64,000 nucleotides of DNA from Pedobacter xixiisoli. Its GTDB lineage: Bacteria; Bacteroidota; Bacteroidia; Sphingobacteriales; Sphingobacteriaceae. This document shows positions 4,864 to 11,318 of the stretch, one piece after another. Below the pieces are notes generated by a model, which did not search any database, was not told where the DNA came from, and saw nothing but the letters and a program-made list of their open reading frames with translations. The position numbers and the translations under genes are program-made. Location: the NCBI RefSeq assembly GCF_900215335.1, contig NZ_OCMT01000005.1:186001-250000 (forward strand), given 5' to 3'. Numbering within the stretch: position 1 is the stretch's first letter; every line of letters starts with the position of its first letter.

Positions 4864-6666
4864 CTAAACGGTCTCTCCACGTAGGTTCCGGTATCTTTTT
4901 CTAGCTTCGGCATTCAACATGCTTCCGGGAAAATCAGTAATGAGTTGTTGGTATAGTTTTTTCGCTTCCTCTGTGTTGTTGAGTTTGCTTTCGTACAGTT
5001 CTGCAAGGGTAAAAATGGCATCATCTATCCAAATGCTAGTCAAATGCGAAGAAATTAATTGCTTAAGATTGGTTTCTGCCTGAGAGAAATCGTTGTTTTT
5101 GATAAAGATTTTTGCTTTCGCCATCAAGATATCATCTGCCAAACTATTTTTAGGGTAGGCAATATCGATGCTGTCTAATTTTTTTAACGCTGCTGTATTA
5201 TTGTTGATAAACTGCAACATTTCTGCATCTGCATACATCATTAGCGCTAAACTGTCGTTTTTGCTCTGCAGATTGTCTGAAATCAACAGACTTAAATTTA
5301 AGGCATCATTGGCCATTAACTGAGATGTTGAGGCTTTCAATACATCGGCCTGCGATTTAGCAAATTTGAAGTTGCCTTGATAGAATGAAAGCCTTGCCGA
5401 ACGATAACGGGCATCACTAGCTACAGGTAAATTATCGTACTGTTTGGATACTTGCTCGTAAATAAGTACCGCCTCCCAAGGTTGTTTGTTCAGTACATAA
5501 ATATCGCCCAAATCTATTTTTAACTGCCCAATTTCCATGGCTGGTAAACCTTGAACTTTTAAAGCCTGCTCTAGAGTTTTTTCGGCGGCAGATAAATCGT
5601 TAAGGTAATAGGCTTGTAAGTGAGACAGTTTTTTTAGTGCAAAAACTGTTTGATTGTTGATGCCATATTGCGTAATGATTTGCGAAAACTCATTGGCCAA
5701 TGCCTTGATAGCTATTTGATCCGTTTTGCCTTGCATGGCCAGCTCATATTTTGCATTAATCAACTGAATCTTTGATGGAAGGTATAATTCATTTTCTGGG
5801 CCTTTGGTAATCAAATATTCGTAAGCTTTAATTGCGGTAGGATAAGCTTTGTTGGCCACAAAAGTATTGGCAGTGTTAAATAGCAGATTAGCTGCTGTTT
5901 TGGTACGTCTATCTTGTGCAATAAGCTGACGGAGCGCCATTTCATATTCTTGCTGCTGTATGAATTGCCAAATGAGTAATTCTGTGAAAATCTCATTATC
6001 CGGAGCTTTTTGAATCTTTTTTAGCAGGGCTGATTGTAGCGCTTGATAATCGTTGTTGCTCTCGAAAAGATTGGCAAGTATGCTTTGTGCTTGAGGCAAA
6101 AGTTGAGGATTGGCAGGTAGCGCATTTAGATATTCGTAAATTAACGCTGGCTTGTCTTTCTTAAAACGGTAGATACTCAATAACTCGAAGGCGAAAACCT
6201 GTTCATCGTTCAATACCTTTCTGCCTTGTAAAAAAGTACTCACAGCCATATCATAAGCCTCAAACCTATAGAAAGAATTAGCTAATTCCCTGAACATAAA
6301 CTCGTTTTTAGGGATGTTTTGTATAGCTATCTGATAAATTTTATCAGCTTGGGCAGTTTTGCCACTTTCCTGATAAATTCTTCCCAATGCAATTTGGTAG
6401 GTTAATTTTTGTGGCGATTGCTTAATCAATCTTTTAACTAAAGTTTCTGCCTCGTCGTATTTTTTTATTTTTAGGAGAGAAGTATAATATAAGTCGAAAT
6501 AACCGTCATTTCTAGTACCGTTAAATAGTTTTTCTAACAGCACCGCAGCTTTTTCGTAATCAGCTTGCTGGTAATATTGATAGGCTAATGCCTCGTCCGT
6601 ATTGTTTTGAGCCCATATAGTGGATGATAGGCAACAAGTAATTAGAAGGAGCAAAAAATGTTTCAT
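4864..6666 (-). CDS. Secreted tetratricopeptide-repeat protein
   Basis: A 600-residue protein with a cleavable signal peptide (MKHFLLLLITCCLSSTIWAQ) followed throughout by degenerate TPR helical pairs, for example EALAYQYYQQADYEKAAVLL near residue 25 and YESKLNNTEEAKKLYQQLIT near the C-terminus, ending in a short basic tail. It should be a periplasmic scaffold for protein interactions. It heads the minus-strand group with DUF4286 and rfbC; divergent from it across 257 bases is the S9-like gene. No specific function can be assigned. Confidence 0.85.
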   Translation of the reverse strand: MKHFLLLLITCCLSSTIWAQNNTDEALAYQYYQQADYEKAAVLLEKLFNGTRNDGYFDLYYTSLLKIKKYDEAETLVKRLIKQSPQKLTYQIALGRIYQESGKTAQADKIYQIAIQNIPKNEFMFRELANSFYRFEAYDMAVSTFLQGRKVLNDEQVFAFELLSIYRFKKDKPALIYEYLNALPANPQLLPQAQSILANLFESNNDYQALQSALLKKIQKAPDNEIFTELLIWQFIQQQEYEMALRQLIAQDRRTKTAANLLFNTANTFVANKAYPTAIKAYEYLITKGPENELYLPSKIQLINAKYELAMQGKTDQIAIKALANEFSQIITQYGINNQTVFALKKLSHLQAYYLNDLSAAEKTLEQALKVQGLPAMEIGQLKIDLGDIYVLNKQPWEAVLIYEQVSKQYDNLPVASDARYRSARLSFYQGNFKFAKSQADVLKASTSQLMANDALNLSLLISDNLQSKNDSLALMMYADAEMLQFINNNTAALKKLDSIDIAYPKNSLADDILMAKAKIFIKNNDFSQAETNLKQLISSHLTSIWIDDAIFTLAELYESKLNNTEEAKKLYQQLITDFPGSMLNAEARKRYRNLRGETV

Positions 6667-6923: not shown

Positions 6924-8819
6924 ATGAAGGTTGCTGTGAAAAAATATATATGGTTATTGGTGGTGGTGATGCTTTTTGCCTGCAATCAGAAGAAGGAGGT
7001 TAGGGAAATTCCTGTTAACGATTTCTTTAAAACGCAGGACAGGGCATTGTATCGTTTATCGCCCAATGGCAAATACTTATCATACCTAACGCTTAAAGAC
7101 AAGAAACAACATTTAGTTGTAGAAGATTTAGAACATGGTAAAACTACCGAAGTTTCTAAATTGGAAGAGCGCAACATTCATTTCTATTGTTGGGTAAGCA
7201 ACGATGAATTGATCTACTACAAAGAGAAAGACGACAGTAGGTTTCAAACCGATTTATACATCGTTAACAAAAATGGCACAGAAGAGCGCCTGTTAAATGC
7301 TGACGAAAAAAGCAAAGTACGCCTTTTGGATGACCAGCTGATTGAAGATAAATTCCTTCTGGTAACAAGTAATAAGAGAGATTCTACCGTTTTTGATGTT
7401 TACCGATTAAACGTGAGAAACGGACAGATGCTTGTTGCTGCGAAAAATCCAGGTAACTTTACCAATTGGCTAACCGACAGCAAAGGTAAATTACGCATGG
7501 CGATTTCTAGCGATGGTGTAAATGAATCTTTTTGGTACAGAGAGAATGAAACCAAGCCTTTCAAAAAAATCATTACCAATAATTTCAAAACAACGCTTTG
7601 GCCTGTTGCTTTTTCAGAAAATAAACCAAATATCGTTTACGCTATTTCTAATGTTAACCGTGATAAGAATGCGCTAATAGAAATAGATTGTATTAACGGT
7701 AAAGAAAAAAATGTACTGTTTGCTGATGATACGCTAAACGTAGTTGAAGCGCAATATTCCAAGCGTAGGGGTAAAATGGATTTTGTAGTGTACGAAACTT
7801 GGAAAAAGGAAAAGCACTACTTAAATGACGAAGCAAAAAAGCTGTTCGGGAATTTAGATAAGCTAATTCCGGATGCAGAATCAAGGATTGTTCATAATGA
7901 TAAAAATGAGCAACATTTCATCGTAAGAACATTTACAGACCGTAGTCCGGGAGCGTATTATTTGTATTATGCAGAAAACAATTCATTGAAGAAATTGAGC
8001 GACATTAATACTTCTATTAAAGAAGATGAAATGTGCGAAATGAAGCCAATTAGTTATGTTACAACGGATGGTTTTAAAATAGATGGTTATTTAACGTTGC
8101 CGTTAGGTGTAGACCCAGAAAATTTGCCAGTGGTGGTAATACCTCATAATGGGCCTGGGCAAAGAAATAGCTGGGGATTTAATTCTGATGTACAGTTTTT
8201 AGCTAACAGAGGTTATGCTGTGCTGCAGGTAAATTACAGAGGGTCTACGGGCTATGGTAAGGAATTTTATGCTGCAGGTTTCAAGGAGTGGGGGCAGAAA
8301 ATCCAGAAAGATGTAGACGCAGGTGTACAATGGTTAATTGACCAGAAAATTGCTGATCCGCAACGTGTGGCAATTTATGGCTATGGTTTTGGTGGTTTAG
8401 TGGCAATTAACAGTGCTGTGGCTAATCCAAAAATGTATAAATGTGCTGGCTCTAGCGCTGGTGTGCTTAATCTTTTCAGTTATTTGAAAACAATACCTCC
8501 GTTCTTGACGTCTAATTTACAGATGTTTTATGAAATGGTTGGTAATCCAGATAAAGACGCAGAATATATGAGACAAGCTTCGCCAGTTTTTCATGCCGAT
8601 AAAGTCAAAATTCCGATATTTATTACCCAAAACTCTAAAGACCCTAGAATTAACGGAAACGATGCTGTTCAATTTGTAAAAGAACTAAAGAAATTGAATT
8701 CGCCAGTAACTTATCTAGAGAAAGAAGATAATAAATCAGTATTGAATAGGGAAGAGGCTAGGAAAAAATCTTATGCAGCTTTGGAGCTTTTCTTACAAGA
8801 TAACCTTAGAAAGCGCTAA
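6924..8819 (+). CDS. S9-peptidase-like lipoprotein lacking catalytic Ser and His (probable pseudoenzyme)
   Basis: A 631-residue lipoprotein (lipobox MLFAC, Cys20) with an N-terminal beta-propeller (about residues 40-370; start LYRLSPNGKYLSYL) and a C-terminal prolyl-oligopeptidase-type alpha/beta-hydrolase domain (about 380-631; GYLTLPLG, VIPHNGPGQR, LQVNYRGSTGYG). The nucleophile elbow, normally GxSxGG, reads GYGFGG with Gly488 at the Ser position. Asp573 (SKDPRI) is kept, but the usual GHG with the catalytic His reads DNKS around residues 602-605. Two of three triad residues are therefore absent and peptidase activity is unlikely. The gene ends two bases before a histidine kinase, followed by a response regulator, suggesting a ligand-binding or kinase-modulating role. 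A diverged but active hydrolase using other residues cannot be excluded. Confidence 0.85.
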   Translation: MKVAVKKYIWLLVVVMLFACNQKKEVREIPVNDFFKTQDRALYRLSPNGKYLSYLTLKDKKQHLVVEDLEHGKTTEVSKLEERNIHFYCWVSNDELIYYKEKDDSRFQTDLYIVNKNGTEERLLNADEKSKVRLLDDQLIEDKFLLVTSNKRDSTVFDVYRLNVRNGQMLVAAKNPGNFTNWLTDSKGKLRMAISSDGVNESFWYRENETKPFKKIITNNFKTTLWPVAFSENKPNIVYAISNVNRDKNALIEIDCINGKEKNVLFADDTLNVVEAQYSKRRGKMDFVVYETWKKEKHYLNDEAKKLFGNLDKLIPDAESRIVHNDKNEQHFIVRTFTDRSPGAYYLYYAENNSLKKLSDINTSIKEDEMCEMKPISYVTTDGFKIDGYLTLPLGVDPENLPVVVIPHNGPGQRNSWGFNSDVQFLANRGYAVLQVNYRGSTGYGKEFYAAGFKEWGQKIQKDVDAGVQWLIDQKIADPQRVAIYGYGFGGLVAINSAVANPKMYKCAGSSAGVLNLFSYLKTIPPFLTSNLQMFYEMVGNPDKDAEYMRQASPVFHADKVKIPIFITQNSKDPRINGNDAVQFVKELKKLNSPVTYLEKEDNKSVLNREEARKKSYAALELFLQDNLRKR

Positions 8820-8821
8820 TT

Positions 8822-10498
8822 ATGCCTAAGGAATCTGTAAAAGAAAGTGGTTACCGCAAGAATTTCTCCCTGATTGTAACTTTCATAGGCTTAATTTCTG
8901 CACTGTTTATACTTTCACTATTCTTGGCTTTTAATTTTAGCAAGAAAAAGATAGAAGGCGACTTTGTATCGGCAAAAACAAATGTACTAGAAGAAAGTAT
9001 TAAGCCCTACAATGATTTCTTCCTAAATAAACTGCCCGAAATTTCTTACTACAACGGTTACCTAGATTCTACTACTGCAGCAAAATTTGTTGATACCATT
9101 CTATTGAAATATCCTTTCATCAAAAGAGTGGTTTTTTTCGATGCTGAGGTGCGCAATTCGAGGTACGAAGAGAACGGCTTAAACGTAGGGAACTTCTCTG
9201 CAGGAATGAAAAGTGTGTACCAATTTGGTACGTATATTTCTGCAGATTCGGTAAAGATTTTCGGTGAAAATTCAATACCTAGCAATACTACCCTAGAGAA
9301 CTTTAATGAACTAGCGCTGAAGTTATATACGTTTGTACACAAGTTAGATACTACAAGAGTGCCTACACAAGAGGATTTGTTTAGTAATTTCTCGAATATC
9401 AAACCCAATAGAATCGATTACTTCAATATCCCTAGGTTTGAAGACTTGAAGGTGTACAAGCAGATGATTGGCACTAAATTGCCAACTGAACCAGTTTATC
9501 AACAAGATATGCTTTCTTTTGAGCTAGATCCGATGAAGATCAAAATCAAGAACAATAGACCTCTGCTTTATCAATCTGTGCGCATAGAACCTGTAACTTA
9601 TGACCCCTTAGAAACTTCTTCGGAGTATGTTACCGGTGAAATTACTCTAGGAGGTCCCTTTTCTGCTTATAAATTGTATTTTATTTCAGCTAAGTCTTTC
9701 ATCAAGAAGGAAATTTTTAGCTATTTCTTCCCCATAGCAGCGCTGATTTTGATTTTTTATGGCTTGCTACTTTTGGTTGCATTTCTGATCTACAGAAACT
9801 TGAACATCAACCATAAAATGTTTAAGCTACAGTATGATTTCATTACCAATCTGACACATGAGTTTAAAACGCCAGTCAGTGTCATTAAGATTGCCGGAAA
9901 TAATATTAAAAGTGCGGCAAGCATCTCCGAGAGAGAGCAAAAACTTTATGGTAAAATATTGGATGAAGAAGCCGACAAGCTGAATGGTTTGATGAATAAG
10001 TTGCTGGCATTTACGCAAATAGAGAATAAAGCCATCAAGCTAAACGAAGATAGAGTAGATATTACCGAATTTATTGAAAGCACTATTGATGTTCATCAAT
10101 TAAAACATCCAGATTTTAAACTTACTTATGAAGTAACTGAACTTACCCATTTTACAACAGACCCTGTGCTTTTAGGAAGCTTATTCGATAATTTGTTGGA
10201 GAATGCTTACAAGTATTCGCCACCAGATAAAAAACAAATGCACATTACTGCTCGTTTAATTAAAGATAAAATTGTGTTGCGCTTTAAAGATGCAGGTATT
10301 GGCATTCCAGCTTCGGAAATAAACAATATCTTTAAAAAGTTTTATCGTGTACAAAACCAATACAACCAAGCAGGAAGTGTAGGCTTAGGTTTGGCTTTTT
10401 GTAAGGAACTTGTTAATTTTATGAAAGGTGAAATTAGTGTTCGTAGTGTTGTTGGTAAAGGAACAGAATTTAAAATAGTATTACCGTACATACAATGA
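8822..10498 (+). CDS. Sensor histidine kinase
   Basis: A 558-residue membrane sensor kinase. Helix 1 at about residues 15-38, a large periplasmic domain at about 39-295 with no recognisable fold, helix 2 at about 300-325, then HisKA with NLTHEFKTPVSVIK (phospho-accepting His346) and HATPase_c with the N box DNLLENAYKYS, KDAGIGIP, FKKFYRV and GLGLAFC. All catalytic motifs are intact. It begins two bases after the S9-like lipoprotein gene and is followed by an OmpR-type regulator after a palindromic gap, so it most likely phosphorylates that regulator. The signal is unknown. Confidence 0.95.
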   Translation: MPKESVKESGYRKNFSLIVTFIGLISALFILSLFLAFNFSKKKIEGDFVSAKTNVLEESIKPYNDFFLNKLPEISYYNGYLDSTTAAKFVDTILLKYPFIKRVVFFDAEVRNSRYEENGLNVGNFSAGMKSVYQFGTYISADSVKIFGENSIPSNTTLENFNELALKLYTFVHKLDTTRVPTQEDLFSNFSNIKPNRIDYFNIPRFEDLKVYKQMIGTKLPTEPVYQQDMLSFELDPMKIKIKNNRPLLYQSVRIEPVTYDPLETSSEYVTGEITLGGPFSAYKLYFISAKSFIKKEIFSYFFPIAALILIFYGLLLLVAFLIYRNLNINHKMFKLQYDFITNLTHEFKTPVSVIKIAGNNIKSAASISEREQKLYGKILDEEADKLNGLMNKLLAFTQIENKAIKLNEDRVDITEFIESTIDVHQLKHPDFKLTYEVTELTHFTTDPVLLGSLFDNLLENAYKYSPPDKKQMHITARLIKDKIVLRFKDAGIGIPASEINNIFKKFYRVQNQYNQAGSVGLGLAFCKELVNFMKGEISVRSVVGKGTEFKIVLPYIQ

Positions 10499-10625: not shown

Positions 10626-11318
10626 ATGTCAAAAGATATCAAAATATTAATTGTTGAAGATGATGAAAACCTACGTTTCTTAGCAGCAATGCGTTTGAAA
10701 ACGGAAGGCTACCAAGTATTGGAAGAAGCTGATGGCATCAGTGCTATCCAAACCATCACCACAGAAAAACCAGATATCGTATTGTTAGACTGGATGCTTC
10801 CAGGAAAAGAAGGTTCTGAGGTTTGCGAAGAAGTTCGTAAGCAAGGTTTTGAAGGTTTGGTAATTATGATGACTGCCAAAGCACAAGACGTAGATAAAAT
10901 TGATGCTTATCAATTTGGTGCTTCTGATTATGTAACCAAGCCATTTAGCATGGACGTTTTGGTAGCGATGTTAGAAAGCAAAGTAAAGTTTTTGCTTAAT
11001 GCAGAACGCTCAGAAATCCATCGCTTCGGCAATATGGAGCATCATCCAAACGTACATACCTTATTTCGTGAGGGCAAGAAAATTGAGTTGACTATCTTAG
11101 AGAACAGGATATTGCTTTACTTCTTGCGTAACCCAAATCAGGTAATTAGTAGAGAAGATTTGATGTTGGAAGTTTGGGGTTATAACTCCGATGTAAATAC
11201 TCGTACATTAGATATGCACATCGTTCGTTTGCGTAAGAAAATTGAAGTTAATCCGGATAATCCGCAGTTATTGCAAACGGTAAGAGGTGTAGGCTATAGG
11301 TTTAATGTAGGGAGTTAA
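10626..11318 (+). CDS. OmpR/PhoB-family response regulator
   Basis: A 230-residue regulator. I choose the ATG at 10626 (MSKDIKILIVEDDENLRF) because the longer frame from 10578 translates a palindromic repeat. The receiver domain (about residues 5-118) has the acidic pair EDD, phospho-acceptor Asp55 in VLLDWMLPG, MMTAK and the Lys of YVTKPF. The C-terminal winged helix (about 135-228) has NRILLYFLRNPNQVISREDL, RTLDMHIVRLRKKI and VRGVGYRF. It is the likely partner of the upstream kinase and S9-like lipoprotein. Target genes are not evident. Confidence 0.95.
   Translation: MSKDIKILIVEDDENLRFLAAMRLKTEGYQVLEEADGISAIQTITTEKPDIVLLDWMLPGKEGSEVCEEVRKQGFEGLVIMMTAKAQDVDKIDAYQFGASDYVTKPFSMDVLVAMLESKVKFLLNAERSEIHRFGNMEHHPNVHTLFREGKKIELTILENRILLYFLRNPNQVISREDLMLEVWGYNSDVNTRTLDMHIVRLRKKIEVNPDNPQLLQTVRGVGYRFNVGS

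Follow-up and report, generated by a model that had tools for sequence, protein, structure and literature searches.

A candidate accessory lipoprotein with the fold of an S9 peptidase beside a histidine kinase of the Sphingobacteriaceae

The DNA analysed here (the window) is a stretch of 64,000 nucleotides of Pedobacter xixiisoli (assembly GCF_900215335.1, contig NZ_OCMT01000005.1, positions 186,001 to 250,000 of the forward strand) that encodes, one after the other, a lipoprotein with the fold of an S9 (prolyl oligopeptidase) family peptidase, a sensor histidine kinase and an OmpR/PhoB-type response regulator. We propose that the three genes make up a three-component unit of the Sphingobacteriaceae, in which the S9-fold lipoprotein probably serves the adjoining kinase as an accessory or ligand-sensing subunit. 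The catalytic Ser and His are missing from the window protein and from most of its kinase-linked homologues, a minority of which keep the complete triad. The likeliest history begins with the coupling of an active peptidase to the kinase, after which catalysis was lost repeatedly, usually by replacement of Ser by Gly.

The unit in the window and across the family

By its Pfam score, its predicted structure and its Foldseek matches to S9 structures, the window protein belongs to the S9 family by fold. It scored 131.4 bits against Peptidase_S9 (PF00326, cut-off 22.6), and its predicted model reached a predicted local distance difference test score (pLDDT) of 79.7 and a predicted template modelling score (pTM) of 0.78. 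The solved structure closest by sequence, the cold-adapted acylaminoacyl peptidase 5l8s (E 3.3e-34), was the best Foldseek match of the model as well (template modelling scores 0.70/0.72). Against the dipeptidyl-peptidase Dpp5 model NF053518 the protein obtained 83.4 bits, below the curated cut-off of 900. The nucleophile elbow reads YGYGFGG, with Gly488 in the position of the Ser of the GxSxGG motif of active peptidases, and the column that holds the catalytic His in intact homologues is occupied by Ser605 (LEKEDNKSVL); Asp573 is retained. An initial annotation of this DNA had described a Gly in place of Ser within GYGFGG, the sequence DNKS in the His loop, Asp573 as the sole triad residue left and a propeller-hydrolase architecture, all of which were borne out, the residues by alignment with intact homologues and the architecture by PF00326, the predicted model and Foldseek. 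The lipoprotein character that it had proposed also agrees with the N-terminus, where a putative lipobox, LFAC with Cys20, was read by eye without a signal-peptide program.

The stop codon of the S9 gene ends at 8819 and the ATG of the kinase begins at 8822, which leaves the gap of two bases described in the initial annotation. Kinase and regulator have the domains of an orthodox two-component system, that is, HisKA with the H-box His, HATPase_c, a receiver and a winged helix, and His346 was invariant in the 21 aligned kinases. The Pfam scan of the kinase sensor region gave no family above cut-off, and no match to an RsbP-type PAS domain, although such a scan is no evidence of absence. The structure matches of the kinase model filled the kinase core, with the exception of a WalK-YycH model that was aligned at very high root-mean-square deviation. 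The span 6924-10498, which had been taken as the whole feature, contains both open reading frames as they had been stated and omits the conserved regulator gene that follows them.

The 300 genomes sampled from the order were all assigned to the family of the window, Sphingobacteriaceae, and an S9 relative at E ≤ 1e-60 was found in 298 of them. The operon is near-universal in this bacterial family. G249 had only an S9 fragment, with the kinase beginning at the contig edge, and G074, a 2.3-Mb genome, had neither the S9 protein (E ≤ 1e-20) nor the kinase (E ≤ 1e-60), being the sole such case among the 300. Across the phylum the S9 protein is spread wider than the kinase, since S9 relatives at E ≤ 1e-40 occurred in 101 of 395 genomes and relatives of kinase residues 1-321 at E ≤ 1e-6 in 11 of 395, all from the same family. 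A search of plasmids returned 65 records with S9 relatives, all below 60% identity.

The order S9 gene, kinase, regulator was kept in 33 of 34 named loci, the other (L033) ending within the S9 gene. With 160 further regions fetched, 140 from the family and 20 from other families, 170 family loci could be judged; five distant S9 paralogues of the window's own genome (L036-L040, 22-27% identity) were excluded from all counts. Taking as adjacent a kinase similar to that of the window, on the same strand and between -400 and +700 bases of the S9 frame, the kinase was adjacent in 167 of the 170 loci, spanning all 17 genus codes sampled, and mostly lay no more than some tens of bases away from that frame. 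The three loci without it (L092, L103, and L170) are second copies in genomes that also have a kinase-linked copy. The regulator was seen in 100 of the 109 kinase-linked loci used in the trees, some of which have short flanks that can leave it out of view. The coupling to kinase and regulator, initially proposed from the window, is thus a family-wide feature. In none of the 20 regions of other families was a window-like kinase adjacent. Two of these regions showed weaker resemblances: in L129 a weakly similar kinase lies 3.6 kb away from the S9 gene, and in L120 a weakly regulator-like gene (82-858) lies directly upstream of a kinase-free S9 gene.

Triad states and the order of events

After identical copies and fragments had been dropped from 228 S9 matches, the alignment took in the 207 distinct proteins that span 500 or more residues of the query; 184 of them were kinase-linked and 23 kinase-free. 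In the kinase-linked set the Ser column held Gly in 157 proteins, Ser in 21, Arg in 5, and Asn in 1, and the Asp column held Asp in 180, Asn in 2, Ser in 1, and a gap in 1. Ser and His were both absent in 157/184, while the full triad was present in 20/184. His without Ser was found in six proteins (L077, L082, L083, L131, L151, and L154), although in L131 the His may have come into that column by chance in the alignment, and Ser without His in one, L056 of genome G033. This last protein belongs to the Pedobacter clade, has Phe in the His column and sits among Gly proteins, which may hint that single reversions occur. All 21 Ser codons of the kinase-linked proteins are AGT or AGC, one transition away from Gly, and the strain in the elbow may favour Gly as well.

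The first 23 kinase-free proteins all had Ser, Asp, and His. Because just two of them came from the family, 40 extra kinase-free genes were fetched, of which 26 are second copies within the family and 14 come from other families, and the triad was complete in 40/40, hence in all 63 kinase-free relatives read. None of these 40 genes had a window-like kinase beside it; L277 has, on the opposite strand, a gene with weak resemblance to a kinase. The alignment also included the kinase-linked counterpart from the genomes of 18 of the 26 family copies, and in every case this counterpart was without Ser and His. The 26 copies mostly belong to a longer-framed group (open frames of 755-800 residues) with 32-35% identity to the window protein, and given this distance they do not stand for close relatives but allow loss within the same genomes to be controlled for. 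Among the kinase-free genes, two further arrangements were observed: in L092:5664-8993 the second S9 copy is split into two frames, with the triad complete in the C-terminal piece, and L111:5910-9820 holds two tandem copies with the triad intact in both.

Intact kinase-linked forms were found in 8 of the 17 genus codes (g4, g5, g9, g10, g11, g13, g15, and g16), and in 0/50 proteins of the window's genus (g1), 0/46 of g2, and 0/20 of g3. Their identity to the window protein was 37-49%. The partnership with the kinase is therefore not confined to inactive forms and probably preceded them, given that 20/184 keep the full triad. The loss of Ser and His, for which a search among homologues beside kinases had been suggested, is widespread in them and falls short of universal. 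An intact triad in the same operon, which the initial annotation had named as a sign of recent decay or sequencing error if found in close homologues, does occur, but not in close homologues. Decay and error were excluded because the intact forms are distant, none of the 50 proteins read from the window's own genus is intact, and the ratio of nonsynonymous to synonymous divergence (dN/dS) is only 0.02-0.04; to this may be added that 157/184 proteins are without both residues and that relatives persist in 298/300 genomes.

These ratios were obtained by comparing the window S9 gene with four close relatives (dN 0.029-0.066, dS 1.5-2.1); dS was near saturation and incomputable for three more distant pairs. 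The S9 gene of the window lineage is under strong purifying selection. In seven of seven comparisons its dN was lower than that of the neighbouring tetratricopeptide-repeat (TPR) gene and higher than that of the kinase. Pseudogene status of the window gene was also rejected. Broken or short frames were seen in three kinase-linked loci (L107, L130, and L197); in G103, G186, and G245 the S9 match crosses one stop codon, and their loci were not flagged as short.

A tree of 131 S9 rows was built without the triad columns, and one of 68 rows was built under a mixture model. In the former, one branch with support 99 separates the kinase-linked from the kinase-free proteins, and the latter agrees. 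On the 131-row tree the intact state required 12 changes (12-13 with weak branches collapsed, 10-12 if losses are irreversible) and Ser alone 13-14; the intact state required 11-12 changes on the kinase tree and 8 on the 68-row tree. The states at the base of the kinase-linked clade were taken from outgroup-rooted parsimony costs. At equal costs neither state of the ancestor is preferred, since there is a tie between intact and not intact (12 versus 12) and likewise for Ser (13 versus 13), with His slightly favoured (10 versus 11). When a regain was priced at two losses, an intact base was cheaper (12 versus 15). Moreover, Tyr527, Pro530, Gly570, Arg575, and Glu603 are common to the intact kinase-linked and the kinase-free proteins and were let go in the inactive ones. 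Considering both the intact base under dearer regain and these shared flanking residues, repeated loss after a single coupling is favoured, and the changes of triad state are best read as losses. Regain of the triad as a general account of the intact forms is as cheap under equal-cost parsimony but was rejected, as it needs both residues and as the intact kinase-linked proteins share the flanking residues with the kinase-free enzymes. The initial idea of a dead peptidase that became a sensor consequently keeps its constrained and kinase-coupled protein without Ser and His and probably loses its order of events, for 20/184 kinase-linked proteins retain the triad.

Proposed role of the lipoprotein and competing explanations

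In the mechanism that we propose, the lipid-anchored S9-fold protein, probably periplasmic, would act on the extracytoplasmic region of the neighbouring kinase, and the kinase would pass the signal to the OmpR/PhoB-type regulator. The unit probably cleaved peptides at its origin, an activity that would be dispensable for signalling, which would account for a triad lost many times with the fold and parts of the pocket kept. We infer here the contact between S9 protein and kinase, the direction of the effect, the binding of a ligand and the absence of activity.

As regards the pocket, the largest drops in conservation from intact to inactive kinase-linked proteins were in the Asp loop (0.80 to 0.52) and the His loop (0.61 to 0.47), while the HGGP loop (0.70 to 0.72) and the NRGY-GSTGYG region (0.88 to 0.89) held steady. 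H408, G410, R414, W417, and Y505 were present at 90% or more in the intact, the inactive and the kinase-free groups. A kept pocket with lost chemistry is the pattern that would be expected of a binding protein, although structural needs could equally account for it.

As regards the anchor, the Cys20 column held Cys in 95% of the 20 intact and 100% of the 157 inactive kinase-linked proteins, and in 35% of the first 23 kinase-free ones. The strict lipobox pattern was matched by 137/184 kinase-linked and 5/23 kinase-free proteins, several misses carrying a Cys by eye. In Bacteroidota, acidic residues after the lipobox Cys mark export to the surface. Of the 137 kinase-linked proteins that match the strict pattern, just 18 carry a net acidic charge in the five positions that follow the Cys, so that the S9 lipoprotein is more likely to face the periplasm. 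In 61 loci, with kinase core and regulator held constant, the partial distance correlation was 0.51 between S9 protein and kinase sensor, 0.385 between S9 and TPR proteins, and 0.24 between sensor and TPR protein.

Several results weigh against an accessory role. Adjacency could be explained by shared transcription alone. The difference between the S9-sensor and S9-TPR correlations is small and is no contact test; being in the right direction, it lends weak support. Mean conservation of the hydrolase domain was 0.67 in the inactive proteins (n=157) versus 0.74 in the intact kinase-linked ones (n=20), and the conserved pocket residues may be structural. Lipidation as a mark of kinase coupling had to be dropped, as the Cys was found in 7 of the 14 additional kinase-free proteins from other families (and in 0 of the 26 family free copies), so that a lipid anchor exists outside the kinase-linked group. 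The predicted model of the kinase is of low confidence (pLDDT 69, pTM 0.42). Finally, in L107:5949-7936, L197:3003-4900, and L130:5933-7633 the S9 frame is split or short and the kinase frame is open. Unless sequencing errors lie behind these frames, the kinase may be retained where no complete S9 protein is made.

These three loci fit an explanation in which the S9 lipoprotein is an output or a bystander of the operon, that is, an envelope scaffold or chaperone working elsewhere, with the regulator controlling its own operon and the kinase unaffected. The same explanation gains from our having only inferred the S9-kinase contact, and from the TPR gene, which likewise adjoins the unit in at least 70 of the 109 tree loci (flank lengths differ) and has no evident functional link with it. 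It fits poorly with a kinase that is adjacent, mostly at some tens of bases, across all 17 genus codes, with the joint absence of S9 protein and kinase in G074, and with S9 distances that agree a little more closely with those of the kinase sensor than with those of the TPR neighbour, and we regard it as unlikely, though by no means negligible. An RsbQ-like arrangement, in which the intact hydrolase makes or removes a molecule or peptide sensed by the kinase and the triad-less protein is a remnant whose input was lost, would suit the 20/184 kinase-linked proteins that retain the triad and its surroundings, and RsbQ itself depends on its own triad (PMC3183031). A remnant, however, would not be expected to stay as strongly constrained as the protein of the window lineage, and the 157/184 proteins without Ser and His still cover at least 500 aligned query residues, which makes this arrangement quite improbable. 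Still less credible is that the protein remains an enzyme with a different catalytic centre. Asp573 is kept in 180/184 and the fold appears intact in the prediction, but no conserved Ser, Thr or Cys was found in the elbow of the inactive forms inspected, and the His column is occupied by many different residues; we give this explanation hardly any weight.

Returning to the accessory subunit, a more specific version of it is that a peptide or small molecule is bound in the pocket of the inactivated peptidase, which signals its presence to the dedicated histidine kinase, in the manner of the hormone receptors derived from hydrolases. We put this forward tentatively, as a possible reading that is less probable than the accessory role as such. 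If it were true, the family would contain at the same time active forms, half-inactive forms that have lost Ser but not His, and fully inactive forms, and the change from enzyme to receptor would have taken place in parallel about ten times. In any case, the turn from enzyme to non-enzyme seems to have been repeated many times from one ancestor, which amounts to a repeated natural experiment where active and inactive relatives can be compared on the same kinase. It becomes testable with them why signalling partners often derive from enzymes and which property, binding and not turnover, persists.

Related systems and features of the window

The gibberellin receptor GID1 is a hydrolase fold turned receptor after loss of a catalytic residue; it is a soluble plant protein, not known to have a propeller, and binds the hormone and a repressor protein. 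RsbQ is not known to have a propeller or a lipid anchor, and LpqB is, we presume, not an S9 protein. The mammalian inactive S9B proteins DPP6 and DPP10 resemble the window protein in having propeller and hydrolase domains and in being membrane-anchored partners of a signalling membrane protein. They serve Kv4 channels, and within this shared fold the place of Ser is taken by Gly in DPP10 (elbow GKGYGG) and by Asp in DPP6 (PMC4350108 and PMC4873792). The partner there is an ion channel and the anchor a transmembrane helix, whereas here a kinase is the presumed partner and the anchor is lipid; DPP10 keeps His and Asp, whereas the window protein has lost His as well and a single bacterial family shows many changes of triad state. 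Of the features of the DPP6/DPP10 type, the fold and the loss of Ser are seen in the window protein, and binding and inactivity would follow by analogy. Fly DPP10 is described in PMC4873792 as channel subunit and active peptidase at once, which fits a partnership established before the loss, in animals.

The MtrAB-LpqB system of actinobacteria likewise has a lipoprotein gene beside those of a kinase and a regulator, LpqB being tied to the MtrB kinase and thought to modulate it from outside (PMC12338722). It differs in the regulator, since that of the window reached 206.2 bits against the MtrA model, whose cut-off is 300. In the pair RsbQ/RsbP-PAS a hydrolase gene adjoins the gene of a signalling protein to form a two-part sensor; according to PMC3183031, the alpha/beta-hydrolase RsbQ requires its triad and has PAS signalling proteins as partners, some of them histidine kinases. 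This requirement, and perhaps the PAS partner, sets it apart from the window protein, which is without the triad, although the 20/184 intact kinase-linked homologues have it. The unit thus shares parts with DPP6/DPP10, LpqB-MtrB, and RsbQ-RsbP and could be counted with any of them only by analogy, if at all. Among the papers listed in searches of mainly open literature, no study of the operon came up and none named an S9 protein or an inactive peptidase paired with a histidine kinase; the initial statement that no system of this kind had been described is nevertheless too strong, given these three parallels.

Table 1: Coordinates, in the window, of the S9-fold gene, its partner genes and their parts.
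Feature	Position	Strand	Basis
S9-type pseudo-peptidase lipoprotein gene, 631 residues	6924..8819	+	Open reading frame, PF00326, predicted model, Foldseek
Putative signal peptide and lipobox LFAC, Cys20	6924..6983	+	Read from sequence
Predicted beta-propeller domain, about residues 40-370	7041..8033	+	Strands 51-360 in predicted model
Alpha/beta-hydrolase domain, about residues 372-628	8037..8807	+	PF00326 at 417-630; predicted model
Codon 488, Gly in place of the catalytic Ser	8385..8387	+	Alignment with intact homologues
Codon 573, kept Asp of the triad	8640..8642	+	Asp in 180/184 kinase-linked proteins
Codon 605, Ser in place of the catalytic His	8736..8738	+	Column of His in EGHGF of intact homologues
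Sensor histidine kinase, 558 residues	8822..10498	+	HisKA and HATPase_c
Putative extracytoplasmic sensor region of the kinase, about residues 39-296	8936..9709	+	Limits read from sequence
OmpR/PhoB-type response regulator	10626..11318	+	Response_reg and Trans_reg_C in the translation from 10620; ATG at 10626

The divergent TPR-repeat gene that adjoins the unit lies at 4864-6666 of the window, on the minus strand. One of the loci, L002, comes from a record titled Flavobacteriaceae bacterium PS02338 and has S9 protein, kinase, and regulator 90-97% identical to those of the window; the title looks wrong, because the window otherwise matches Pedobacter records.

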